Shown here piece by piece: positions 736 to 12,699 of a stretch of 42,728 nt of DNA (position 1 is the stretch's first letter; every line of letters starts with the position of its first letter). Origin of the DNA: Sphingomonadaceae bacterium (GTDB lineage Bacteria > Pseudomonadota > Alphaproteobacteria > Sphingomonadales > Sphingomonadaceae); the NCBI GenBank assembly GCA_903642255.1, contig CAHJWP010000004.1, positions 1 to 42,728 of the forward strand, read 5' to 3'. A program made the translations under genes and the position numbers. The notes beneath the pieces are model-generated. The model was not told the DNA's origin and ran no database searches. It worked only from the letters and a program-made list of their open reading frames with translations.

Positions 736-1088
736 CCGGCGCGCTGATTTTACTCGCCGCCGCGGTGACCGCCGCCGCGCCGCCGGCCGTCGACGGGGCG
801 GTCGAGCGGCCACTGACGACCGTCGCCTTCGCCGCCCTGCCCCGCCGCCTCGGTCGCATGGACAGTCCGCGGCGCGAAACTGACGTGTACCGGTCCGTGG
901 CTGATCGACGTGCTCGGGACTGTCGGCGTGCCGGCCGGCGACGCCGTGCGTGGCGAGGCCCTGTCGCTCGTCGTCACCGCGATGGGGCGGCCGACGACGG
1001 TGGCTATCGGCTCGTCCCGGCGAACGACCATCGCGGCGCGCGCGGCGTGCGCAACCTAGTCCGCCTGACGGTCGGCCGCGTGGCCTAG
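732..1088 (+). pseudogene. Decayed molybdopterin-dependent oxidoreductase-like gene (frameshifted)
   Basis: A protein of the YedY/sulfite-oxidase-like (oxidoreductase molybdopterin-binding) type can be pieced together only by changing frame. Frame 3 from the ATG at 732 gives a signal-peptide-like start (MTGALILLAAAVTAAAP). From about 853 to 950 the family resemblance moves to frame 1, with WTVRGAKLTCTGPWL then LIDVLGTVGVPAG and a following RGEALSLVV, a typical core of these small proteins. From about 981 it returns to frame 3, with DDGGYRLV and RGVRNLVRLTVGRVA, the typical C-terminus. The segment that normally lies between (the DGY...ELDP stretch, about 40 residues) appears deleted. The stop overlaps the end of the convergent priming transferase by 3 bases. 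The family call is from memory of its motifs; that the gene is broken is clear from the frames. Confidence 0.6.
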
Positions 1089-2539
1089 AAGGCGTTGGTC
1101 GGGATGACGAGCGCCGTCACGGTCCGGGCAAGGACGTAGAAGTCGAACCAGATCGACCAGTTCTCGATGTAGTACAGGTCGTGCTCGAAGCGCTTGATGA
1201 GCTTGTCCTCGGTGTCGGTCTCGCCGCGCCAGCCGCAGACCTGCGCCCAGCCGGTGATCCCCGGCTTGACCTTGTGCCGCGCGGCATAGCTCGACAGCAC
1301 GTCGGAAAACAGCCGACCGCCGGCGCGCGTCGACGGCGCGTGCGGCCGCGGCCCGACCAGCGACATCTCGCCCTGGAACACGTTGAGCAGCTGAGGCAGC
1401 TCGTCGAGGCTGGTCCGGCGGAGGATCGCACCGACCCGGGTGACGCGCGGATCGCGACGGCTCGCCTGCGTGATTTCCGTATGTTGCGCGTGATTGTGGA
1501 ACATCGTCCTGAACTTGAAGACGCGGAACGGGCGGTTGTTGAAGCCCTCGCGCGGCTGACGGAAGAAGATCGGCCCGGGCGAATCGAGCCGGATCGCGAG
1601 GGCGATCAGTGCCATGGGGATGGCGAAGACCAGCAGCGCAAGCGACGACAGGATGCGGTCCTCGGCCATCTTGGCCCATGCGTCGATGCCGGAGATCGGC
1701 CGCTCGAACAGTGTCATCACCGGCACCTCGCCGAGCAGAACGACCGGCCGGCGGGCGAAGACGAAACTGGCGAGGTCGGGCGCGAGGCGGATGCGGACCG
1801 GGGTCAAAGCGAGGCGGCTGACGACCTCCTGCAGGCGGATCTCGGCCGACCACGGCAAAGCGACGATGACCTGGTCGATCCGGCCGTCGCGGATCGCCTC
1901 GACCAGCGCCGACAGGTTGCCGAGGACCGGAATGCCATGGTGCGACGTCGGCACGCGGCCATCCTGCCGATCGTCGAAGAAGCCGACGATGGTGATCGTC
2001 AGCTTGTCAGTGGTCAGGATATAGTTGGCGAGCTTGGCACCCTGCGAGCCGGCGCCGAAGATGGCGACGCGCTGGTTGAAGCTGCCGCGCCGCTTGAGGC
2101 GACGTACCCAGATCGTCATCGCCAACCGCGTCGACAGGAGCATGATGCCGCCGGTGAAGAACCAGCCGAGCGCCCATTCGCGCGACACGGTATCCGACGT
2201 CTTGAGCAGGAACCCGAGCGTCAGCAGGAACAGCGCGGTCGTCACCCACGCGGTCGCCACCCGCTGCCACGCCTTGCGCAGCGAGAACTGTGCCTCGATG
2301 TCGTAACTGCCGACGGTTTCGGCAAGGACGGCGAAGGCCACCGCGGCGACGAACACGATCCGCGAATAGACGACGTCGTAGCGTCCCGCCGACGGGATCA
2401 GCAGGTCGATCGCCACCATGCCCGACAGGATGACGACGACGAACTCGATCGCCCGGACGATCAGCACGACCGCGTCGAGCGGGATACCGGCGCGGTCGAC
2501 CGCGGCGGGCATCGGTGTCGGATCGCCAGTCTTGTTCAA
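1085..2539 (-). CDS. Undecaprenyl-phosphate sugar-1-phosphate transferase (WcaJ/GumD type)
   Basis: Polyisoprenyl-phosphate hexose-1-phosphate transferase that starts polysaccharide repeat-unit synthesis by moving a sugar phosphate, probably glucose-1-P, onto undecaprenyl phosphate at the inner membrane. The 484 residues show the full-length family layout: four N-terminal membrane segments (about 23-48, 60-77, 97-113, 124-145), a Rossmann-like CoA-binding domain with FGAGSQGAK (161-169), another hydrophobic segment (297-316), and the C-terminal catalytic domain (from about 285) with LDSPGPIFFRQPREG, FKFRTM, TSLDELPQLLNV, GEMSLVGPRP and KPGITGWAQV. The longest frame opens with TTG at 2539, with AGGG about 10 nt upstream; an ATG at 2512 is an alternative start without a visible ribosome site. 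It is convergent with the DUF885 unit and divergent from the XrtV accessory gene. Confidence 0.93.
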   Translation of the reverse strand: MNKTGDPTPMPAAVDRAGIPLDAVVLIVRAIEFVVVILSGMVAIDLLIPSAGRYDVVYSRIVFVAAVAFAVLAETVGSYDIEAQFSLRKAWQRVATAWVTTALFLLTLGFLLKTSDTVSREWALGWFFTGGIMLLSTRLAMTIWVRRLKRRGSFNQRVAIFGAGSQGAKLANYILTTDKLTITIVGFFDDRQDGRVPTSHHGIPVLGNLSALVEAIRDGRIDQVIVALPWSAEIRLQEVVSRLALTPVRIRLAPDLASFVFARRPVVLLGEVPVMTLFERPISGIDAWAKMAEDRILSSLALLVFAIPMALIALAIRLDSPGPIFFRQPREGFNNRPFRVFKFRTMFHNHAQHTEITQASRRDPRVTRVGAILRRTSLDELPQLLNVFQGEMSLVGPRPHAPSTRAGGRLFSDVLSSYAARHKVKPGITGWAQVCGWRGETDTEDKLIKRFEHDLYYIENWSIWFDFYVLARTVTALVIPTNAF

Positions 2540-2935: not shown

Positions 2936-3637
2936 CTAGACGCCGAGCCGCTGCAGTCCGGCCGCCAGCGTCGGTCCGACGAGGATGCTGCGATCGACCG
3001 GCTTGACCGCGAGGATGAAGGCGCGGCCGAACGCGGCCAGCGCGGCGAACGTCGCCGGGGTCGGCTCGGCGACGGTCGACAGGCGGACGAGGATGCCATC
3101 GGGCACGATCCCGGCGAGCTGCTCGCGCAGCCGCATCGTCCGCTGCTCGCGCCGCGTCGTCGGCAGGAAATCGCCGATGCGCGTCCAGTAGGTGATTGGC
3201 TCGATCCGGTTGTCGGTGGACGCCGTCAGCTCGCGCGCGGGGATCGCGATATGCGGGGCGACCGGCAGGTCGAGTTTCGTCGAATTGGAAATCTGGAAGC
3301 CGACGGCGGCGTAGCACACCTCCGGCCGGTGGAGCTGGAGCAGGTCGCTCTGCAGGTTGCCATAGGCCAGTACCATCATCACCGGCAGCGCGTCCGGCGC
3401 GACGTACAGGCGGCTGACGGTATCGCTGTACAGGCGGTCGGCGAGGCTGCCCGGAGTCTTGGGCAGGATGAACGCCTGGCTCGGCGTCATCGTCCATGCA
3501 CCGATCTTCGGCGGGACGATTGCATCGAGCTTACGCCCGTGCAGCAGCTCGACATGGTGCCGCGGCGTCAGCGCCGCCGCTCCCGCCGCGGCCAGCAGCA
3601 TGCCGCCGCCGAGGAGAACGTCGCGCCGGTCGATCAT
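2936..3637 (-). CDS. epsI: EpsI family protein, exosortase V-associated
   Basis: A 233-residue protein with an N-terminal signal or anchor (MIDRRDVLLGGGMLLAAAGAAALTP). Its core carries the EpsI hallmark LHRPEVCYAAVGF (102-114, including H103 and C108). In many exosortase loci EpsI is a separate protein or is fused to the exosortase C-terminus; here it is separate and encoded directly after the exosortase. EpsI is thought to act in the periplasm in EPS production or sorting; its biochemical role is unknown. The ATG at 3637 is chosen because the longer frame back to 3721 runs antisense-like through the tandem repeat and exosortase tail and is Arg/Gly-rich. Thirteen bases separate it from the exosortase stop, so the two are probably co-transcribed. 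Confidence 0.85.
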   Translation of the reverse strand: MIDRRDVLLGGGMLLAAAGAAALTPRHHVELLHGRKLDAIVPPKIGAWTMTPSQAFILPKTPGSLADRLYSDTVSRLYVAPDALPVMMVLAYGNLQSDLLQLHRPEVCYAAVGFQISNSTKLDLPVAPHIAIPARELTASTDNRIEPITYWTRIGDFLPTTRREQRTMRLREQLAGIVPDGILVRLSTVAEPTPATFAALAAFGRAFILAVKPVDRSILVGPTLAAGLQRLGV

Positions 3638-3650
3638 CGCGGCCGGCCCG

Positions 3651-4586
3651 TCATCGCCGGCTCTCGAGCCCCGTCCGCGGCGGCGGACCTTCGAGCCCCG
3701 TCCGCGGCGGCGGACCCTCAAGCCACGACCGCACGGGGGTCAGCAGCGCGTCGATCAGGAAGATCAGCAGCAATGCCGACGTAAACGTCACCATTCCGGC
3801 GAATTTGTGGAGGAAACCCTGCGCCACGGCATCGCCGAAATAATAGGTCAGCAGCACGAGCGCCGCGACGCGCACGCAGTTGGCGAGGATCGCGATCGGC
3901 ACGACCAGCGCGAGCAGCAGCACCGAATAGCGCCAGTTGCTGTTGCGCATGACGTAGACGTAGAACAGCCCGATCGCCGTCAGGCTGATCAGCGAGTTGA
4001 GCCCGGCACAGGCGTCCTCGACGAGCAGCTGATACTGGGCGACGTAGATCGTCACCCCGACCCGCGCGACCGGATAGCCGACCGCCCCGAGGACATCGGT
4101 CACCCCTTCCGAGACGAGCGCCTTCAATGGCTGCGTCGCGGTATCGAGCATCGAACCGGGAATGGGAATCATGAACATCAGATAGACGATCGGAAACCAC
4201 ATCAGCCGCAGCACGGCCCCGCCGACGAAGCTGTAGGCAACGGCACCGAAGGCGAGCAGCATCGACGCGACCTCGATACTGATGAAGTCGAAGGCCCGGC
4301 CGAAAGCATAGCCGACGATCGCGACAAGGATCGCGGCGGTCGCCGGGCCGAGTGCACCCGGTCGCGCGAGGCGGCGGATCTCGTCGCCGCGGCGGAAGAT
4401 CAGCCAGATGCCGGTGGCGAGGACCAGCGGACCGTGGACGCCCGCCTCGGTCGACCACGGTCCGACGCCGAGGCTGGCGATCGTCGGCATAAAGATCGCG
4501 ACCGCGCCGATGACGAGCAGCGCGTGGCGCGTCAGCAGCCGGCCCCAGTCGATCGCCGGGCCACGCGGGGCAGCGAGGGTCGCCAT
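3651..4586 (-). CDS. xrtV: Exosortase V (XrtV), membrane cysteine transpeptidase/protease
   Basis: An integral membrane protein of 311 residues with about eight hydrophobic segments. The exosortase catalytic triad is intact: Cys193 in EDACAGLNSLISL, Arg239 in ANCVRVAAL and His260 in GFLHKFAG. Exosortases cleave proteins with a C-terminal PEP-CTERM-like tail and hand them on to the surface or to EPS. The V-type call rests on the neighbours (small accessory gene, separate EpsI, EpsD/E/F/G set), not on a computed match. The start ATG shares one base with the stop of the upstream EpsG-like gene (TGATG). The C-terminus has a short cytoplasmic tail with LEGPPPRTG repeated twice (289-306), made by a 27-bp tandem duplication. 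Confidence 0.88.
   Translation of the reverse strand: MATLAAPRGPAIDWGRLLTRHALLVIGAVAIFMPTIASLGVGPWSTEAGVHGPLVLATGIWLIFRRGDEIRRLARPGALGPATAAILVAIVGYAFGRAFDFISIEVASMLLAFGAVAYSFVGGAVLRLMWFPIVYLMFMIPIPGSMLDTATQPLKALVSEGVTDVLGAVGYPVARVGVTIYVAQYQLLVEDACAGLNSLISLTAIGLFYVYVMRNSNWRYSVLLLALVVPIAILANCVRVAALVLLTYYFGDAVAQGFLHKFAGMVTFTSALLLIFLIDALLTPVRSWLEGPPPRTGLEGPPPRTGLESRR
3664..3716. repeat. 27-bp tandem duplication in the exosortase tail
   Basis: Two near-perfect head-to-tail copies of a unit beginning TCGAGCCCCGTCCGCGG lie at 3664-3690 and 3691-3716. The period of 27 bp keeps frame, so on the minus strand each copy adds LEGPPPRTG to the exosortase C-terminus. The repeat lies beyond the last membrane segment and does not touch the catalytic residues. 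Confidence 0.9.
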
Positions 4587-5464
4587 CAGAACTCGCTCAG
4601 GACCGAACCGAGCACAGAACTCCGCGCCGCGGCGAGCTGCTGCGCCAGCGTCGCGACATCGGCGACGAACGTGCGGTTGCGCCGCGCAATAATCACTGCA
4701 TAGCCGATCACCCCCGAGATGGTCAGCGCATCGGCACAGCTGTTCGCCGCCGGCGTGTCGAACAGCGCGATGTCGTACTCGCGCAGCAACGTGTTCATCC
4801 CGTCGCGGAAGCGCGTGCTCGACAGCAGTTCCTGCGGCCGCGCGACCGGCGGTCCGGCGGTGATCACCGACAGGTTGGGCAGGACGTTGGCATGGACGAC
4901 GCGCTCGGGCCGTGCGGCCTTGAGCGTCAGGTAACTCGACAGGCCGGGGCCGTTGGCGGCAAGGCCGAAGATCTGGTCGATCCGCGGTGAGCGGAGATTG
5001 CCGTCGACCAGCAGCGTCTTCGTGCCGATCTGCGACAGGGCGGCGGCGACGTTGGCGACGAGGTAGCTGCAGCCGACGGCGTCCATCGGTGCGACGAAGG
5101 CGATGGCGCGGCGACCGGGCTTGATGTGCTGGGCGATGATCTGGGTCCGCAGCAGGCGGATCGATTCGGCCTTGGCGCTGACCGGGTCGCTGAGGACGAC
5201 GAGTTCGTCCGATACCGCCCGCCGCTGCGTCTGCTGCAGCGCAAGGCTGTTGATCAGCTGATCGCGCGCGCGGTCGAGCTCGTCGACACCGATGAACCCG
5301 AGCTCGACCGCCGCCTGATCGAAATCGAGACCGCGCTCGGCCTGATGTTCGGCAACCCGTGCCGACTCCTCGTCGGTCAGCAGGCCGAGCCGGAGCAGCG
5401 CATCGCGGATCGGTGCGTCGGGCGCGACGCGACCGTCGCTGACCGTGCCGTCGGTCACGCTCAT
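4586..5464 (-). CDS. EpsG-like chain-length ATPase (BY-kinase relative) with GspE-N-like domain
   Basis: A 292-residue cytoplasmic partner of the Wzz-type protein encoded just upstream. Residues 15-72 form a helical GspE/MshE N-terminal-like domain (DALLRLGLLTDEES, then ELGFIGVDELDRARDQL). Residues 100-292 form the ParA/CpsD-like domain: Walker A' LLVDGNLRSP (151-160, Asp154) and Walker B DIALFDTP (231-238). The Walker A region reads APMDAVGCSY (125-134) and lacks the GKS/T lysine; some EpsG-family proteins also have a non-canonical sequence here. No tyrosine-rich C-terminal tail is present, so classical autokinase activity is doubtful. It overlaps the Wzz gene by ATGA and the exosortase start by one base, implying translational coupling. 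Confidence 0.85.
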   Translation of the reverse strand: MSVTDGTVSDGRVAPDAPIRDALLRLGLLTDEESARVAEHQAERGLDFDQAAVELGFIGVDELDRARDQLINSLALQQTQRRAVSDELVVLSDPVSAKAESIRLLRTQIIAQHIKPGRRAIAFVAPMDAVGCSYLVANVAAALSQIGTKTLLVDGNLRSPRIDQIFGLAANGPGLSSYLTLKAARPERVVHANVLPNLSVITAGPPVARPQELLSSTRFRDGMNTLLREYDIALFDTPAANSCADALTISGVIGYAVIIARRNRTFVADVATLAQQLAAARSSVLGSVLSEF

Positions 5465-6855
5465 CGGGCCGCCTGCAGGCCGCCGAGGCGGTCGTCGCGT
5501 CGCAGCACACGGCGCAGGCGGCGCGCGAGGCTGACCGGCGCGGTGTCGGCGATCACCGCCAGCACCGCCGAGTTCGCCGCATGGGCGAGGTCCTCGGGAC
5601 CACGGACCCGGCGCGAGACCAGTTCGGTCGCGACGGCGATGACGATCCCCAGGCCGAGCCCGAGGATGACGCCGAGCGCAAGGAACAGCGGCTTGTTGGG
5701 GAACGACGGCGTGCCGCTGACGAACGCATCGCCGAGGGGAACGAGCCCGGTCTCCGACACGTCGGCCTCGAGCTTGAGATCGGCGGCGCGGCTGGCGGCC
5801 TTTTCATACTGCGACTTGCGCAGGTCGACGTCGCGCTGCAGCTGTGCCAGCTCGTCGAGCTTCGACTTCAGGCCGAGAACCTTTTCCTTCTGCGCGGCGA
5901 GCTCGCTCTCGAGCCGGCTGGCATTCGCCTGCGTCGCTGCCGACATGTCGACACCACCGCCCGTCGCGGCCGCCGTCGCCGTCGCCCGGGCGAGCTGCTG
6001 CTGCAGGACCTTACGCCGCTCGATGAGGGCGATATAAGCCGGATGCGCCGTGCCGAGCTTCTGGCTCGCCTGGACCATCGCGTCATCGACCGCATTGAGC
6101 TGCGACTTGGCCGCTTCGACCTCGGGCGACGTCGCGCCCCGGCCGCCGCCGCCGACCAGCCCGGCCGAGCTGCGCGCCGACAACAAGGCGCTCTGCATTG
6201 ATTCAAGCTTCATCGTTTCCGAGTCGGCTCCGCCAGGTGCCATGACGATCCCGTTCGCGCGCTCGAACTCCGACTTCTTGGCTTCCGCCGCGGCCAGTGC
6301 CGCCTGCGCCTTGTTCGCCTGGTCGACGTACCAGTCAGCCGAACGTCCGGCAGCATCGGTGCGGAAGCGCAGGCTGGCGTCGATGAAGGCAGCGCGGAGC
6401 GCGGTGACGACGTTCTTCGCGAGGATCGGATTGCCGCCCTTGTAGGTGATCTCGAGGATGTTGCTCGCCTCGACCAGATCGGCTTCGGTGTTGTCGATGA
6501 TATTCTGCGCCTCGTAGCGGCGGAAGTCCGACGTGCCGTCGCTGTTCTTCTGATAGTCGGCAACCAGCACCGGATTCTTGTCCCAGCCGAGCCGGTCGAC
6601 GACATCGCCGGCGACGCGGTAGTCGGTGATCAGTTCGGTCTGGGTCTTGGTGTAGCCGCGCACGAAGCTCGACGAGATCACCTGTCCCGACACCGGATCG
6701 GGCTTGATCACGTCCATCAGGACGCGCGCCGTCGCCGGATATTTCGGCGGCAGGACCAGACAGAGCACGGCCGCGATGATCACGCCGGCGAGCAGCGTGA
6801 ACAGAATGATCAGCCGCCGGGCGAGCAGGATCCGAAAGAACTGGGCAATACTCAT
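5461..6855 (-). CDS. Wzz/GNVR chain-length determinant, EpsF-like
   Basis: A polysaccharide co-polymerase of 464 residues, the usual size for the family. It has an inner-membrane helix at about 14-36, a Wzz domain starting with LPPKYPATARVLMD (35-48), a long periplasmic coiled coil (about 175-205 and 275-365, Ala/Gln/Lys/Glu rich), and a second membrane helix at about 388-411 preceded by the proline-containing PSFPNKPLFLALG. A short basic C-terminal cytoplasmic tail follows. Such proteins set polymer length and bridge the flippase/polymerase to the Wza-type outer-membrane pore; the EpsG-like ATPase encoded next (ATGA overlap) is the expected cytoplasmic partner. The gene starts 39 bases after the export-protein gene in the same operon. 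Confidence 0.9.
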   Translation of the reverse strand: MSIAQFFRILLARRLIILFTLLAGVIIAAVLCLVLPPKYPATARVLMDVIKPDPVSGQVISSSFVRGYTKTQTELITDYRVAGDVVDRLGWDKNPVLVADYQKNSDGTSDFRRYEAQNIIDNTEADLVEASNILEITYKGGNPILAKNVVTALRAAFIDASLRFRTDAAGRSADWYVDQANKAQAALAAAEAKKSEFERANGIVMAPGGADSETMKLESMQSALLSARSSAGLVGGGGRGATSPEVEAAKSQLNAVDDAMVQASQKLGTAHPAYIALIERRKVLQQQLARATATAAATGGGVDMSAATQANASRLESELAAQKEKVLGLKSKLDELAQLQRDVDLRKSQYEKAASRAADLKLEADVSETGLVPLGDAFVSGTPSFPNKPLFLALGVILGLGLGIVIAVATELVSRRVRGPEDLAHAANSAVLAVIADTAPVSLARRLRRVLRRDDRLGGLQAAR

Positions 6856-6894: not shown

Positions 6895-7668
6895 CTAGAA
6901 CAGCCGCTCCTTGACGATGTAAACATCGCCTTTCTGGACCGGATCGTCGATTTTCGCCGGGACTTCCTTACCACCGGCGCGGATCAATGCAACTTTACGT
7001 TCCGACCCCGATGCCGTGACGCCGCCGGCGATCGCCAGGGCCTGCCGCACGGTCATGTCCTTCATAATGGGAAACGTTCCCGGTCTGGCGACCTGGCCAT
7101 AGACATAGAAGGTGTCGGCGTCGGGCACGAACAGCGTGTCGCCCGGGGCCAGCAGGAGATTCTTGTCCGGCGCACCACGGACGAGCGCCTCGGCGTCGAG
7201 CCTGATTTCCTGGGCGCCCTGCGCCCGCCGTAGATAGACGTAGCCGGCCCCCTGCTGAGCGATCCAGCCCGATTTGAGCAGCATCTCGAGGACCGTATAG
7301 TTCTTGTCGAGCGGGTACACCCCCGGGGTGCTGACCTTGCCGGCGACGTTGACCGTCTTGCTGACATATGCCCCGATCTCGACGTTGACGAACGGGTCCT
7401 TGAAATAGCCGCCCTTGACCAGCTTGGTCTTGATGAGCTCGGCGAGCTGCAGCTGGGTCTCGCCCTCGGCCTTGACCGTGCCGATCAGGGGCATGACGAT
7501 CGTGCCATCGGCCTTGATCCGCGTCGTCACGCCGGCATCGGGCTGACCGTAGACCTGCACCGTGATCGTGTCGTTCGCGCCGAGCACATAGCCCAGATCG
7601 GCCAGCGCCGGCACGGCCGAGCCGACCATGGCGAGCAGGGCAACCATCAACGACACGAAGCGGCGCAT
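6895..7668 (-). CDS. Polysaccharide export protein, Wza/EpsE type (SLBB)
   Basis: A 257-residue periplasmic/outer-membrane export protein. It starts with a Sec signal peptide (MRRFVSLMVALLAMVGSAVPALA), with no lipobox cysteine at the cleavage site. The polysaccharide-export (Poly_export) domain spans about 25-105 (YVLGANDTITVQVYGQPD, then IKADGTIVMPLIG), and two SLBB-like beta-grasp units follow (VNVAGKVSTPGVYPL and FYVYGQVARPGTFPI). It is shorter than E. coli Wza and lacks the lipoprotein anchor and long C-terminal helix, as in EpsE-type proteins of exosortase loci. It is the second gene of the minus-strand operon, 19 bases after the beta-barrel protein gene, which may supply the outer-membrane channel. 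Confidence 0.9.
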   Translation of the reverse strand: MRRFVSLMVALLAMVGSAVPALADLGYVLGANDTITVQVYGQPDAGVTTRIKADGTIVMPLIGTVKAEGETQLQLAELIKTKLVKGGYFKDPFVNVEIGAYVSKTVNVAGKVSTPGVYPLDKNYTVLEMLLKSGWIAQQGAGYVYLRRAQGAQEIRLDAEALVRGAPDKNLLLAPGDTLFVPDADTFYVYGQVARPGTFPIMKDMTVRQALAIAGGVTASGSERKVALIRAGGKEVPAKIDDPVQKGDVYIVKERLF

Positions 7669-7687: not shown

Positions 7688-8992
7688 CTAGATGTGTACG
7701 GCGAAGGTGATGCTCGCCTTCGTACTATTATAGTTAAGGACGCTCGGATCGGCCGTCCGCATCGTCTGGCTGACGGCCAGCGTCACGTCGTAGAGCGGTC
7801 GCGGGGCATAGGTCACGCTGATCCCTCCCGTCTTGCTCATTTCGTTGCGCCGTGGCGGCTCCCCGGGAATCGCGAACGACTGCTTATAGTCGTTCGCGAT
7901 TAACCCGACATTGGCGTCGAACGAGATCGCCTCGCCGAGCGTATAATTTCCCGTGAGCAGCACCTGGTCGACGACGCGATACAGGGCACCCGCCGTGGTG
8001 CTGGCGATGATGTCGCGCGAGCCGTTCAACGCGAACGACAGTCGCGGGCTGGCGGTATAGGTCAGCCCCAGGTTGTACGCCGGCGAACTATAGGGGGACT
8101 GACCGCCGCCGGTCGGCTGGGCGTGAAGATACGATACGCCGATCGTGCCGCTGAGCCGCGTGCCGATCGGCCGCGACAGCGACACCCCGATCCGGTACGT
8201 CCTGACGCCCGTGCTCAGCAATTGCGGCGGGAGGATCACCCCCGGCGTCGCCAGCCGGTCGGGATAGGAGATCATCGAATAGCTGCCGTTGAGCGCTACC
8301 TGTCCCGGCCGAAGGATGCCGATACCGACCGTCCCAGAAAAGGTGTCGCCGTCGCTGTCGGCGAACTTGCGCGACGCGGAGCCGTTGCGCAGCGACGAGT
8401 GGTTGTACCCGCCGCCGAACGACAGTCGACCGCCGGGCGAGCCGCAGTTCGCGTTGAGCCCGTAGAGCAGCGACGTCTGGAGATTGTTGATCACCTGCCC
8501 GGTATCGTCCGGCGGTGCCGTCGGGTCGATCACGGCATCGTTGGCCCCAAGAATGCCGCCAAGGCGACTGGCGTAGCTGCCGTTCGCCACCGCTTGGCAG
8601 CTCGATCCGCTATGGTACGTCAGCGTACCGTCGGCGACGTAATGGTTCTTGTCGAGATAGGTGTTGTTTTGAAAGAAATCGCGCCCGGCCACTCCCTCCG
8701 CCGTCAGCGACAGCAGGCCGGAGCTGCGCCCGTACGTCACCTTCGCGGTCGGCGAATAGCGGAAGTCGTCCTTGTGGAGGCCGTCCAGCGCGGTGGTCGA
8801 ATTTACGCGCCGCAGATTGCTGTCGTAGAGGATCTCGCCCGTCGCAGTCAGGAGCAGCCCGTCCTGAATCGGCGCAGGGGTGCCGAGTGGTGCCGTGCCG
8901 GTCACCACCGCTGCCGCCGGTGTCGCCGCCGCGATCAGCAGTCCGCCAACGATCCGGCACCACCGCGTGCGGCTATAATGTATCCCACCCAT
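7688..8992 (-). CDS. Outer-membrane beta-barrel protein of the EPS locus
   Basis: A 434-residue protein with a signal peptide (CRIVGGLLIAAATPAAA) and then repeated amphipathic strands rich in Gly, Ser, Thr, Tyr and Asn, typical of a porin-like barrel such as EpsL or the outer-membrane beta-barrel proteins of exosortase loci. The C-terminus is SITFAVHI and does not end in the Phe/Trp common to BAM substrates. It is the first gene of the operon running to epsI, and a promoter-like element ends 8 bp before its ATG. The likely role is an outer-membrane passage for the polymer with the EpsE protein; this is inferred from position and composition, since the primary sequence is poorly conserved. Confidence 0.75.
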   Translation of the reverse strand: MGGIHYSRTRWCRIVGGLLIAAATPAAAVVTGTAPLGTPAPIQDGLLLTATGEILYDSNLRRVNSTTALDGLHKDDFRYSPTAKVTYGRSSGLLSLTAEGVAGRDFFQNNTYLDKNHYVADGTLTYHSGSSCQAVANGSYASRLGGILGANDAVIDPTAPPDDTGQVINNLQTSLLYGLNANCGSPGGRLSFGGGYNHSSLRNGSASRKFADSDGDTFSGTVGIGILRPGQVALNGSYSMISYPDRLATPGVILPPQLLSTGVRTYRIGVSLSRPIGTRLSGTIGVSYLHAQPTGGGQSPYSSPAYNLGLTYTASPRLSFALNGSRDIIASTTAGALYRVVDQVLLTGNYTLGEAISFDANVGLIANDYKQSFAIPGEPPRRNEMSKTGGISVTYAPRPLYDVTLAVSQTMRTADPSVLNYNSTKASITFAVHI

Positions 8993-9124: not shown

Positions 9125-10495
9125 ATGGCGACGCTGTTCAAACGCTGGGGGCGCGCCAGCCCGTCGCCGGAGCCGGAGATGTTCGCCGCTCCGACGACGA
9201 TCGGCAGCGAGCAGCAGCGCCCGGCCTTCCTTGATACCTTGTGGCTCGACGACGAAGCACCGGTCCGCGAGTCCGATCTGCCGCGTTTCACCGCGATGGC
9301 GTCGGACGACATCGACGGCGCGACCGAGGATGCCGGGCAGGCGCGCGCGCGTCTCGCGTTGCGCGATGCGCTCGGCGCGTCGCAGCCGGTGACGACGCGC
9401 GACCGGTTCGCCGGCCGCCACGACGCGCTTGCGCAGTTGATCGCCGCGGTCGAGCAGCAGCGCGTCCATGTCGTTATCTACGGCGAGCGCGGTATCGGCA
9501 AGACCAGCCTCGTCCACGTTTTCGCCGATACCGCGCGCGAGGCGCGCTATATCGTGCTCTACGGCAGCTGCGGTACCGATGGGCGCTTCGACGAGATCTT
9601 CCGCGCCTTTGCCGCCAAGATCCCGATGCTGTTCCACCGCAGCGTCCTGCCGACGACGGCCGCAGTCGAGCAGGCGCTAAACTTCGACAGCATGCTGCCC
9701 CCCGGTCCGTTCGGCCCGCGCGAGGTCAGCGACCTGTTCGCCGACGTCGTCGGCACGCGCGTCATCATGATCCTCGACGAATACGACCGGATCGCCGATG
9801 CCAACTTCCGCCGCGACGTCGCCGAGCTAATCAAGAACCTGTCGGACCGGGCCGCCCGCGTCCAGCTCGTGCTGACCGGCGTCGCCTCGAACCTCGACGA
9901 GCTGATCGGCTTCGCGCCGTCGATCCGGCGCAACATCGTCGGCCTGCCGATGCGGCCGCTCAAGCTCGACGAGGTCGGCGAAATCCTGCGCCTCGGCGAA
10001 GCGGCCGCCGGGCTCCACTTCGGCGATGCGGCGGTGGCGATGATCGCGACGATGGCAAACGGGTCACCCTACCTCGTCCGCCTGCTCGGTCACCGCGCGG
10101 CGATGACGGCGCTCGATCTCCGCCGCGCCGAGGTCGACGCCGGCCACGTCAAGACCGCCGTCGAACGCGTTCTGACCGAATGGAATGCGACATTGCCGCG
10201 GCGCGTCCAAGCGATGCTCGCGCGTGACGAGTCCCGGGCGCAGTGGCCGCTGCTGGTCGCCGCGGCCGAAGCGGGCACCTACAGCGACGGCTGGTTCATC
10301 GCGACCGATGTCGCCGCCGAGCTGACCGGAACCGCGACGCCCGCCGCGATCGAGGCCGACCTCCGCCGCCTGTCGACCCCGCACAACCTGCTCGAGACCG
10401 ACGACCGGCCCGGCGAGCCGCGCTTCCGCTACCGTTATCCGGGCGTCGCGTCGCTGCTGCTGATGTCGGCCTCCATGGCGCGGCTCGAACGCTAG
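9125..10495 (+). CDS. AAA ATPase of the exosortase/EPS locus
   Basis: A 456-residue cytoplasmic protein. After a variable N-terminus (1-90), DRFAGRHDALAQL (93-105) leads into a P-loop domain with Walker A GERGIGKTS (120-128) and Walker B VIMILDEYDR (213-222), a sensor-like VQLVLTGVASN, and a C-terminal helical/winged region. This is the AAA_16/STAND-like layout. It differs from the GspA/ExeA-like ATPase usual in XrtA loci. The ATG at 9125 is chosen because the longer open frame upstream is antisense to the beta-barrel gene. No partner domain is visible, so its role (regulation, assembly energy) is unknown; it stands divergent to the export operon and 186 bases before the glycosyltransferase operon. 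Confidence 0.8.
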   Translation: MATLFKRWGRASPSPEPEMFAAPTTIGSEQQRPAFLDTLWLDDEAPVRESDLPRFTAMASDDIDGATEDAGQARARLALRDALGASQPVTTRDRFAGRHDALAQLIAAVEQQRVHVVIYGERGIGKTSLVHVFADTAREARYIVLYGSCGTDGRFDEIFRAFAAKIPMLFHRSVLPTTAAVEQALNFDSMLPPGPFGPREVSDLFADVVGTRVIMILDEYDRIADANFRRDVAELIKNLSDRAARVQLVLTGVASNLDELIGFAPSIRRNIVGLPMRPLKLDEVGEILRLGEAAAGLHFGDAAVAMIATMANGSPYLVRLLGHRAAMTALDLRRAEVDAGHVKTAVERVLTEWNATLPRRVQAMLARDESRAQWPLLVAAAEAGTYSDGWFIATDVAAELTGTATPAAIEADLRRLSTPHNLLETDDRPGEPRFRYRYPGVASLLLMSASMARLER

Positions 10496-10681: not shown

Positions 10682-11728
10682 ATGCGCCGGATGGCGGTAG
10701 AGCCGCGGCTCGGCGTCGTCCTCGTCAACTGGCGGCGCGCGGCCGACACCATCGAGTGTCTCGAAAGCCTGTTGCGGTCCGACATTTCATTGCAGGTCGT
10801 CGTCGTTGACAACGATTCGGGCGACGGCTCGGTCGATCGCATCGCCGCCTGGGCGGCGGGTGACGAGCGTGCGGCGGCCGTCGCGCCGGGCATGGCCCGC
10901 TTCTCGACGCCGCCGCTGGGGAAGCCGCTGCGCCTCCGCCGCCTGTCGGCCGCCGACGCGGCGACCGCCGTGCCCAACGATGCCGCCGTCACCCTGATCG
11001 ACGCCGGCGGCAACCTTGGCTTCGCCGGTGGCAACAATCTGGGCCTCGCCTTCCTGCTGCGCGCGAGCGGGATCGACGCAGTCTGGCTGCTCAACAACGA
11101 TACCGTCGTCGAACCCGACGCGGCGCAGGCGCTGCTCGCCCGCATGGACGCGACGCACAACGTCGGCATGTGCGGCACGGTTGTCCGCTATTATCACCGG
11201 CCGGCGACAATCCAGGCGCTGAACGGCCACCGCTTCAGCCTGTGGCGCGGCACGTCGCGCGGCATCGGCAGCGGCCAGCCGGCGGCGACGCCGTTCGACC
11301 CGGCGCGGGTCGCGCGCGAGACCGATTTCGTCCTCGGCGCGTCGCTTGCCGTGTCGCGGCGCTTCTTCGAGACGATCGGCCCGATGACCGAGGCCTACTT
11401 CCTCTATTTCGAGGAGATCGACTGGGCCTATCGCAACGCCGGGCGCTTCGCGATCGCCTTCGCCCATGGCGCGATCGTCTATCACAAGGAAGGTGGTTCG
11501 ATCGGGTCGAACGCCGTCCGCGGCCAGCGCAGCGCGACGTCCGACTATTATCTCGTGCGGTCGCGGCTGGGCTTCATCCGCCGCCGCGCGCCGCTGCTGC
11601 TGCCGTGGCACTGGCTGCTGACATTGGTCGTGATCGCGCGTCGGCTCTTGCGGGGGCAGCCGAAAAAGGCCTTGGTGCTGACGCGCGCGCTGTTAGGACT
11701 GCGCCTGAATTCGGGTTCAAGGGGATGA
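10682..11728 (+). CDS. GT2 family glycosyltransferase (rhamnosyltransferase-like)
   Basis: A 348-residue GT-A fold enzyme of family 2, expected to add a sugar from a nucleotide donor to the lipid-linked acceptor at the inner membrane. Visible motifs: VVLVNWRRAADTIECLESLL (12-31), VVVDNDSGDGS (40-50), NLGFAGGNNLGLAF (111-124), the metal-binding WLLNNDT (135-141), and FLYFEEIDWAYR in the acceptor region. This resembles WbbL-type rhamnosyltransferases, which fits the dTDP-rhamnose genes in the same operon. About 45 extra residues separate the VDND and NLGFAGGN motifs. Alternative start: ATG at 10691. Its stop overlaps the EpsD start (ATGA). Confidence 0.88.
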   Translation: MRRMAVEPRLGVVLVNWRRAADTIECLESLLRSDISLQVVVVDNDSGDGSVDRIAAWAAGDERAAAVAPGMARFSTPPLGKPLRLRRLSAADAATAVPNDAAVTLIDAGGNLGFAGGNNLGLAFLLRASGIDAVWLLNNDTVVEPDAAQALLARMDATHNVGMCGTVVRYYHRPATIQALNGHRFSLWRGTSRGIGSGQPAATPFDPARVARETDFVLGASLAVSRRFFETIGPMTEAYFLYFEEIDWAYRNAGRFAIAFAHGAIVYHKEGGSIGSNAVRGQRSATSDYYLVRSRLGFIRRRAPLLLPWHWLLTLVVIARRLLRGQPKKALVLTRALLGLRLNSGSRG

Positions 11729-12699
11729 TGATGATGATGCGCCGGAACGCGAGAATCGCGGCGGGCCTGATCGTGGCGGCGCTGCTCGCCGGCTGCGACC
11801 GGGGTGCCACGCCAAAGGGCCAGGTCGTCGCGACGGTCAACGGCGACGACATCACGATTCACGAGCTCAACTCGGAACTCGCGCTGGCACGCCCGCCCGC
11901 CGATGTCCCGCGCAAGACCGTCGAGCAGGTCGTCCTCGCCCGCGTCATCGAGCGCAAGATGCTCGCCGACGTCGCGCGCAAGCGCAACCTCGACAAGAAC
12001 CCCGACTTCATCCTCGCCGAACGGCGCGGCGAGGATGGTCTGCTGGTCCAGTCGCTGCAGACCGACATCGCGCGGAAGGTGCCGCTGCCGACCCGCGAGG
12101 CGGCCGAGAAGTACATCGAGGCGCACCCCGACCAGTTCGGCCAGCGCAAGATCTATTCGATCGATCAGATCCAGTTCCTCCGGCCGGCCAACATCGCGAC
12201 GCTGGGCCTCGAGAAGGCGCAGACGATGACCGACGTCGCGGCGGTTCTCGCCACGAACAAGATCGAGTCGCGGCGCAACTCCGCCACCGTCGATGCCCTG
12301 ACCGTCAATCCGGCGCTCGTCACGGAGATCGGCAGGATCCTCGCGCGTAACCCGCAGGAAGTGTTCATGTTCGCCGACCAGCCGCAAGGCGCGCCCGTCC
12401 CGGTGATGTACGTCAACAAGGTCACCGACACCAAGATCGTGCCGTATACCGGCGAGCCGGCGATTACCCTCGCTCAGCAAATCCTCCAGCGCGAGGCGGT
12501 GCAGAAGGCGCTCGTCGCCGCGCTCAACAGCTTCCGTGCCGAAGCCAAGGACAAGATCAAGTACGCCGCCGGCTACGGCCCGCCGCCGGCTCCGGCCGCC
12601 GCCAAGCCGGCCGTGCCGGCGGCCGGCGCGACGCCGCCCTCCGCTCCCGGTGGCGCATCGACGGCGACGCCGGCTCCTGCCGCAACCCCCGCGACGTAA
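11725..12699 (+). CDS. EpsD family peptidyl-prolyl cis-trans isomerase, lipoprotein
   Basis: Up to 324 residues. A lipoprotein signal (IAAGLIVAALLAGC) gives a lipidated Cys followed by Asp-Arg. A SurA/PrsA-like chaperone segment follows (VVATVNGDDITIHELNSEL), then the parvulin-like region, which is weak, and an Ala/Pro-rich low-complexity tail of about 45 residues. This matches EpsD-type proteins in EPS loci, probably folding factors for export components. The start is ambiguous: five consecutive in-frame ATG codons lie at 11725-11739. AAGGGG ends directly before the first, so ribosome spacing favours the third or fourth ATG (11731 or 11734). The first ATG overlaps the glycosyltransferase stop. 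Confidence 0.85.
   Translation: MMMMMRRNARIAAGLIVAALLAGCDRGATPKGQVVATVNGDDITIHELNSELALARPPADVPRKTVEQVVLARVIERKMLADVARKRNLDKNPDFILAERRGEDGLLVQSLQTDIARKVPLPTREAAEKYIEAHPDQFGQRKIYSIDQIQFLRPANIATLGLEKAQTMTDVAAVLATNKIESRRNSATVDALTVNPALVTEIGRILARNPQEVFMFADQPQGAPVPVMYVNKVTDTKIVPYTGEPAITLAQQILQREAVQKALVAALNSFRAEAKDKIKYAAGYGPPPAPAAAKPAVPAAGATPPSAPGGASTATPAPAATPAT

Follow-up and report, generated by a model that had tools for sequence, protein, structure and literature searches.

The window analyzed here (42,728 nucleotides; positions 1 to 42,728, forward strand, of contig CAHJWP010000004.1 in the Sphingomonadaceae bacterium assembly GCA_903642255.1) contains an operon of the epsE-epsF-epsG-exosortase type, read from the minus strand. 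Its epsG-like gene, placed between epsF and the exosortase gene xrtV, encodes a protein with the fold of a bacterial tyrosine (BY) kinase and without the P-loop lysine on which such kinases depend. An earlier note made from the letters alone had described an EpsG-like open reading frame (ORF) here without giving its strand; the ORF is found exactly as placed, on the minus strand. The features on which the argument rests are:

4586..5464, minus strand: epsG-like BY-pseudokinase gene (P0001), an ORF of 292 amino acids (TIGR03029, 199.8 bits)
5234..5416, minus strand: MshEN/GspE-N-type helical domain, residues 17-77, with the cyclic di-GMP (c-di-GMP) signature lost (AlphaFold2 models; family profile)
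4589..5212, minus strand: BY-kinase fold domain, residues 85-292 (AlphaFold2 model and structure match)
5147..5167, minus strand: ExxRxxR BY-kinase interface motif (E100, R103, R106), aligned to the CapB motif
5063..5092, minus strand: degenerate P-loop APMDAVGCSY, residues 125-134, the catalytic Lys replaced by Cys132 (alignment)
4985..5014, minus strand: Walker A' LLVDGNLRSP, residues 151-160, the second Asp being Asn (alignment)
4751..4771, minus strand: Walker B region, residues 232-238 (alignment)
5461..6855, minus strand: epsF, a Wzz-type polysaccharide co-polymerase (PCP) without a BY-kinase domain (Pfam Wzz and GNVR; TIGR03017 251.8 bits, below cut-off)
5545..5613, minus strand: EpsF cytoplasmic tail RRVRGPEDLAHAANSAVLAVIAD beyond the second transmembrane segment, a probable docking element (kept in the EpsF alignment; CapA analogy)
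3651..4586, minus strand: xrtV exosortase (NF035943 368.2 bits, cut-off 313)

The three genes are tightly packed: epsF overlaps the epsG-like gene by 4 nt (ATGA), and the epsG-like stop overlaps the start of xrtV by 1 nt (TGATG). The best NCBIfam match of the epsG-like protein is TIGR03029 (EpsG, with the family name "chain length determinant protein tyrosine kinase EpsG"), at E 4.5e-59, with residues 16-290 aligned to model positions 2-273 of 274. This is homology over nearly the full length, taking in both the N-terminal and the kinase-like domain, and it bears out the earlier assignment as EpsG-like, though the 199.8 bits fall below the curated cut-off of 313.8, so that by this criterion the protein is not an EpsG equivalog. 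The best sequence matches in the PDB are CapB chimeras, and an AlphaFold2 model built from 47 sequences (mean predicted local distance difference test score, pLDDT, 89.3) superimposes closely on known BY-kinases: CapA1B1 4JLV at Z 31.7, with a root-mean-square deviation (rmsd) of 1.4 over 203 residues, and 3LA6 at Z 30.1. Orthologs are present in four of the five same-genus genomes, the fifth (76% complete) lacking one, and Nei-Gojobori (NG86) estimates against these four (dN 0.05-0.09, dS 0.43-0.85) indicate purifying selection. Titled neighbors in the tree, such as Polymorphobacter, Sandarakinorhabdus and Glacieibacterium, make the genome look Sphingosinicellaceae-like.

Loss of the P-loop lysine across the family

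Two collections of relatives were compared. One combined 52 titled loci, found with patterns that excluded the P-loop, with 56 fetched regions, 53 of them around XrtV matches (out of 120; about one per genus, chosen non-randomly) and three picked by matches to the window protein. The other was drawn from a single beta-proteobacterial order, sampled further because the only EpsG matches over the cut-off in a phylum-wide sample (4 of 398 genomes) all came from it: 349 genomes yielded 87 places matching TIGR03029 at E 1e-60 or better, 62 of them over the curated cut-off (the beta set).

In the alignment, the P-loop lysine of CapB (K55, Met in the K55M chain 2VED) corresponds to Cys132 of the window protein, as the earlier note had read from the sequence. 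The four same-genus orthologs all read GCS here. The lysine is missing in all 34 aligned window-type proteins and in 61 of the 62 over-cut-off EpsG of the beta set, where the column holds R (26), A (13), V (6), T (6), S (4), C (3), L (1), I (1), a gap (1) and K (1). What had looked like a local oddity is thus a property shared with orthologs and with nearly all sampled members of the curated family. When the 208 columns are ordered by conservation, that of the lysine comes 157th. Cys stands in its place in 27 of the 34 window-type proteins, with Ser or Thr next to it and then, as a rule, an aromatic residue. Relocation of the lysine within the P-loop was considered and rejected: there is none in the loop, and K149 sits in a GxKTLLVD segment common to CapB, so that no substitute is indicated.

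Other parts of the active site are kept unevenly. The earlier note took Walker A' and Walker B to be retained; this is right for Walker B, whose Asp (D236) is present in 34/34 window-type proteins and 57/62 over-cut-off EpsG, and only partly right for Walker A'. There the first Asp is kept (33/34 and 62/62, respectively), whereas the motif reads DxN instead of DxD in 33/34 and 30/62, an Asn also found in the lysine-bearing L068, L070 and L072. The ExxRxxR motif is intact throughout (34/34 window-type, 62/62 over-cut-off EpsG and 86/87 of the whole beta set), and across 134 sequences R106 and E212 are invariant and D154 nearly so. For CapB, a conserved EX2RX2R motif in helix alpha2 is described as belonging to the interface (PMC3795738); our own reading is that this is the octamer interface. 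Of the features of an active BY-kinase, then, the window protein has the Walker B Asp and lacks the lysine, an intact DxD and the Tyr cluster.

The missing Tyr tail, also pointed out earlier, is real (the protein ends ...VLGSVLSEF), yet it does not set lysine-less proteins apart. No more than one Tyr occurs in the last 30 residues of any of the 62 over-cut-off EpsG or of the lysine-bearing EpsG, and 0 to 2 occur in the 57 lysine-less proteins of the non-beta set; of 28 other BY-kinases with the lysine, 27 carry 2 to 11 Tyr within their last 40 residues and L114 carries none. Because EpsG with and without the lysine alike lack the cluster, its absence is, by these alignments, an EpsG trait irrespective of the lysine.

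Lysine loss goes together with the position of the gene. Of the 56 fetched regions, 24 have a BY-kinase-like gene immediately upstream of that for the exosortase, and in all 24 the lysine is gone (Cys, Ala, Val, Arg or a destroyed loop); in 8, the only such gene is non-adjacent, 7 of these having the lysine and one (L127) not; 23 lack such a gene within the stretch covered; and the remaining region, L136, has a lysine-less gene and no exosortase. Many exosortase-V loci therefore do not carry an epsG-like gene. Of the beta places that could be assessed, 59 of the 73 without the lysine are exosortase-adjacent vs. 1 of the 12 with it (two not assessable; Fisher p 2e-6). In the other set, some of whose members are fused Wzc-type kinases and part of which was collected by way of the exosortase, the counts are 49/56 lysine-less vs. 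0/31 lysine-bearing (one not assessable). Besides L127, the exception is L205, adjacent and with lysine. An independent-pairs test of lysine against adjacency on the tree gives a median p of 1, with only 5 lysine changes to draw on. The association is best described as a correlation, strong by counts, and no cause is claimed. EpsG that keep GK[ST] and do not lie beside an exosortase gene (L219, L223, L224, L226-L229, L232, L234, L235, L237, L068-L070 and L072) occur in several nested groups, and the lysine has therefore been either kept or regained. A further EpsG-like group (L012/L120, L013/L136 and L126) has the gene order AAA-EpsF-BYK and an entirely destroyed P-loop.

The N-terminal domain and the surrounding operon

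The earlier note also recognized a GspE/MshE-like N-terminal domain, and here the main evidence is a profile of 78 family N-domains, which matches MshE (5HTL) at E 3.2e-11 and PilF (6F8L) at E 1.4e-24. The window sequence alone is a weak query, reaching E 0.11 against 9G1W (a chain that the sequence file calls PilB and the structure title PilF) and 11.3 bits, with a cut-off of 38, against NF053729, the MshE-related c-di-GMP model. Predicted on its own (pLDDT 85.8), the domain agrees with the proposed fold inasmuch as 5HTL heads its structural matches (Z 9.2 and rmsd 5.9 across 69 residues; Foldseek E 0.13), but with fumarase rows close behind at Z 7.3, the structure taken alone gives modest evidence. 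A Pfam FumaraseC_C match (34 of 78 members, the window protein falling below the cut-off) was set aside as a shared helical arrangement: MshE-type chains score better, although by Z modestly.

MshEN is described as two 24-residue motifs, each beginning RLG, in which changes to conserved hydrophobic residues cost more than tenfold in c-di-GMP affinity and changes to charged residues (Arg9, Gln32) about fivefold at most (PMC5013675). At the RLG positions the window protein reads P18-I-R20 and D47-F-D49, so that neither half retains the R or the G of its motif, and none of 30 close relatives has Gly in both. It is therefore likely, on sequence grounds, that c-di-GMP binding has been lost here. 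The over-cut-off beta EpsG, which keep both Gly in 62/62 and the second Arg in 59/62 (the full RxG in both halves in 6/62), may bind it.

As an explanation of lysine loss, the domain can be ruled out, being neither specific to lysine-less members nor required by them. The profile matches 44 of 57 lysine-less rows and also four lysine-bearing EpsG (L068, L069, L070 and L072), twelve further lysine-bearing EpsG align across it, and it is missing in 13 of the 57, including Phenylobacterium L056, L058, L060 and L062 and the fragment L063. The domain is moreover part of the EpsG profile itself, and its presence does not provide the ground for c-di-GMP or assembly regulation that had been seen in it. 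In the window protein it probably serves as a contact module.

Above the Pfam cut-offs, EpsF shows the Wzz and GNVR domains and no others, and so has no BY-kinase domain of its own. Its tail contains a conserved helix-strand element (RRVRGxEDL...VLAVIA in the EpsF alignment) resembling the CapA alphaA-betaA piece described for the CapAB structures (PMC3795738), and by this analogy may be the docking site for the epsG-like protein. Beyond it, at the C-terminus (window 5461-5545), a basic stretch is followed in many EpsF relatives by a QPAQ/QPAE-like ending. The other genes of the neighborhood are:

2936..3637, minus strand: epsI, V-type, from an ATG start (profile-match ORF 2936-3721; NF045608 268.1 bits, cut-off 228)
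1085..2512, minus strand: WcaJ-type phosphoglycosyl transferase (profile-match ORF 1085-2539; TIGR03023 478.1 bits, cut-off 410.75)
6895..7668, minus strand: epsE/Wza-like export protein (Poly_export and SLBB; TIGR03028 178.6 bits, below cut-off)
7688..8992, minus strand: epsL-like outer-membrane protein (TIGR03014 64.6 bits, below cut-off)
9125..10495, plus strand: AAA_16/STAND-like ATPase, divergent, a frequent operon neighbor (PF13191 E 8.8e-11)
11728..12699, start approximate, plus strand: EpsD-like peptidyl-prolyl isomerase (TIGR02925 83.3 bits, below cut-off)

The minus-strand order is thus epsL-like, epsE, epsF, epsG-like, xrtV, epsI and the WcaJ-type transferase, and the arrangement around the epsG-like gene is conserved across many genera. 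The AAA_16/STAND-like ATPase gene lies beside the eps operon in most close relatives whose contig extends that far; as an idea, its product might provide the ATPase activity absent from the pseudokinase. The window's genome has 22 PEPxxWA-CTERM matches over the cut-off, spread over many contigs; these we take to be sorting substrates of XrtV.

Role of the protein and alternative explanations

We consider it probable that the window protein is a stand-alone BY-pseudokinase, the partner of EpsF, which scaffolds the co-polymerase ring without phosphorylation. The basis is sequence and structure prediction: the BY-kinase fold, the loss of lysine and Tyr tail with ExxRxxR kept, the epsF-epsG-xrtV overlaps and purifying selection. 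The suggestion that the protein is an adaptor rather than a kinase is in this respect well supported. It would dock on the cytoplasmic tail of EpsF and form or stabilize the octameric base of the co-polymerase, and may still keep a nucleotide in a structural role; polysaccharide polymerization and export would be supported by its binding and release, with no cycle of phosphorylation. Published work on the active kinases makes such a role plausible. The inactive mutants CapA1B2 K55M and Wzc K540M are reported as octameric rings (PMC3795738), and therefore the ring does not need the lysine. Rings of Wzc/CapB are described as assembling unphosphorylated and coming apart upon Tyr phosphorylation (PMC12004946), so a protein unable to phosphorylate could still build one.

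Several observations weigh against this. Even for inactive CapB and Wzc mutants, the octamer is reported to be hard to see in solution (PMC3795738). The first Walker A' Asp, the P-loop Ser/Thr and the Walker B Asp are kept, which fits nucleotide binding and perhaps hydrolysis, and in this the protein is unlike EcpK of Myxococcus xanthus, a proposed scaffold lacking all three Walker motifs. Lysine-bearing EpsG make up 12 of the 87 beta places, 11 below the cut-off and one above. The phylogeny is also less tidy than it first appears: a tree of 86 rows with the P-loop columns included has a 46-row window-type clade without any lysine (95/94, bootstrap and SH-aLRT, an approximate likelihood-ratio test), but in a quick 154-row tree without those columns, on which the lysine is gained or lost 5 times, the window-type rows fall on four basal branches, all of them again lysine-less.

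One alternative is that the protein is a non-canonical but active ATPase or kinase, working without the P-loop lysine and perhaps on other targets. The conservation of D154, S/T133 and D236 is what such an enzyme would show, Arg replaces the lysine more often than any other residue among the over-cut-off beta EpsG (26/62), and CapAB K55M is reported to have contained ADP-Mg although none was added (PMC3795738). The variety of residues in the lysine column, from R to aliphatics to a gap, argues in the other direction, as do the missing Tyr-rich tail, the loss of the entire P-loop in the relatives L012, L013 and L126, and the description of the CapB and Wzc lysine mutants as inactive (PMC3795738); we regard this as unlikely. 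Control by c-di-GMP, with the MshEN-like domain binding the nucleotide and gating the co-polymerase, would suit the homology of the family N-domain to MshEN and the Gly and Arg retained in the beta EpsG. Given the loss of R and G in both halves of the window protein, the absence of the paired Gly from its 30 close relatives, and the lack of the domain by profile in 13/57 lysine-less rows (one a fragment), it is a decidedly improbable account of this protein.

The pseudokinase might instead act in trans on a second, active BY-kinase, as its partner or modulator, an interplay of the kind proposed for CapB2/CapB1 (PMC3795738). Among 21 genomes with a window-type operon searched with TIGR01007 (threshold E 1e-12), 15 have two to four matches, some of them Lys- and Tyr-rich (L245, L246 and L249). 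In the other six the lysine-less protein is the only match: G000 (71% complete), G001 (95%), G008 (99%), G067 (99%), G129 (100%) and G190 (99%). The window's own genome, at 71% completeness, cannot decide the matter, but the last four, all at least 99% complete, show no second match at this threshold, and dependence on a second kinase seems very improbable. That the gene is a decaying, functionless relic is scarcely credible: the catalytic position is indeed little constrained (rank 157/208), but dN is far below dS among the same-genus orthologs, the gene overlaps its neighbors on both sides in an operon conserved over many genera, and R106, E212 and, nearly, D154 have not changed across 134 sequences.

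If the scaffold explanation is right for the window protein, it may apply more widely, although here we are more tentative, and put the chances at somewhat short of even. The EpsG "tyrosine kinase" family and its exosortase-V-linked cousins could be almost wholly BY-pseudokinases, with the co-polymerase ring of exosortase-linked systems in these lineages running without tyrosine phosphorylation on a conserved interface; lysine-bearing EpsG would be exceptional and mostly not exosortase-adjacent, and the ring of the beta lineage might be gated by c-di-GMP through MshEN, an input lost in the window lineage. Since 61 of 62 sampled members of a curated family named tyrosine kinase look like pseudokinases and keep the ring-interface motif, there is a case for renaming the EpsG annotation and for not assuming tyrosine phosphorylation in the exosortase systems concerned. 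BY-pseudokinase partners as such have already been proposed (EcpK, HfsB); what would be new is the scale of the pseudokinase state in exosortase systems. Among the literature matches listed (subscription papers being outside the scope), no title or abstract opening names EpsG or TIGR03029 as a pseudokinase, and there was no relevant match on XrtV or exosortase V; PMC12004946 mentions neither EpsG nor exosortases (0 occurrences).

Comparison with known systems

CapB (Staphylococcus aureus) and Wzc (Escherichia coli) have their fold in common with the window protein, ExxRxxR aligning to that of CapB, and differ in having the catalytic lysine and the Tyr cluster. MshE (5HTL) resembles its N-domain in profile and predicted fold, and differs in the RLG motifs. 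The TIGR03029 EpsG are homologous over the full length and have the N-domain, the epsF-epsG order, often an exosortase gene next and, in 61/62, no lysine; they differ in keeping the Gly and mostly the second Arg of the c-di-GMP signature, lost in the close relatives of the window protein. PrmG of the promonan cluster of Sphingomonas sp. LM7 is similar in its CpsD/CapB-type annotation and in being paired with an EpsF-like PCP; the cluster also contains a gene for an AAA+ ATPase, and deleting prmG leaves cells exopolysaccharide-negative. It differs in being described as a genuine BY-kinase (PMC11340318). A possible PrmG ortholog at L136 was not accepted: the AAA-EpsF-BYK order is there, with a destroyed P-loop, but the gene downstream is PhyH-like rather than WecG, and orthology is not claimed.

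Functional parallels are probably the bipartite co-polymerases with a pseudokinase scaffold proposed in 2025, defined by EcpK/EpsV and by HfsB/HfsA of the Caulobacter holdfast; the BY-pseudokinase subfamily is described there, with reference to an earlier survey, as widespread (PMC12004946). By their description in that paper, HfsB is likewise a stand-alone BY-pseudokinase beside a PCP without a kinase domain, both being needed for the polysaccharide, and in EcpK/EpsV a stand-alone protein of BY-kinase fold, which has neither the key catalytic residues nor a Tyr tail, is paired with a PCP lacking a kinase domain; EcpK with the EpsV tail was modeled as an octamer, with partly good confidence. 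EcpK differs in its wholly lost Walker motifs and a basic C-terminal helix, while the window protein keeps the first Walker A' Asp, Walker B and ExxRxxR and adds an MshEN-like N-domain and an exosortase operon. Judged by this anatomy, the window protein would work in the manner of the EcpK and HfsB partners.

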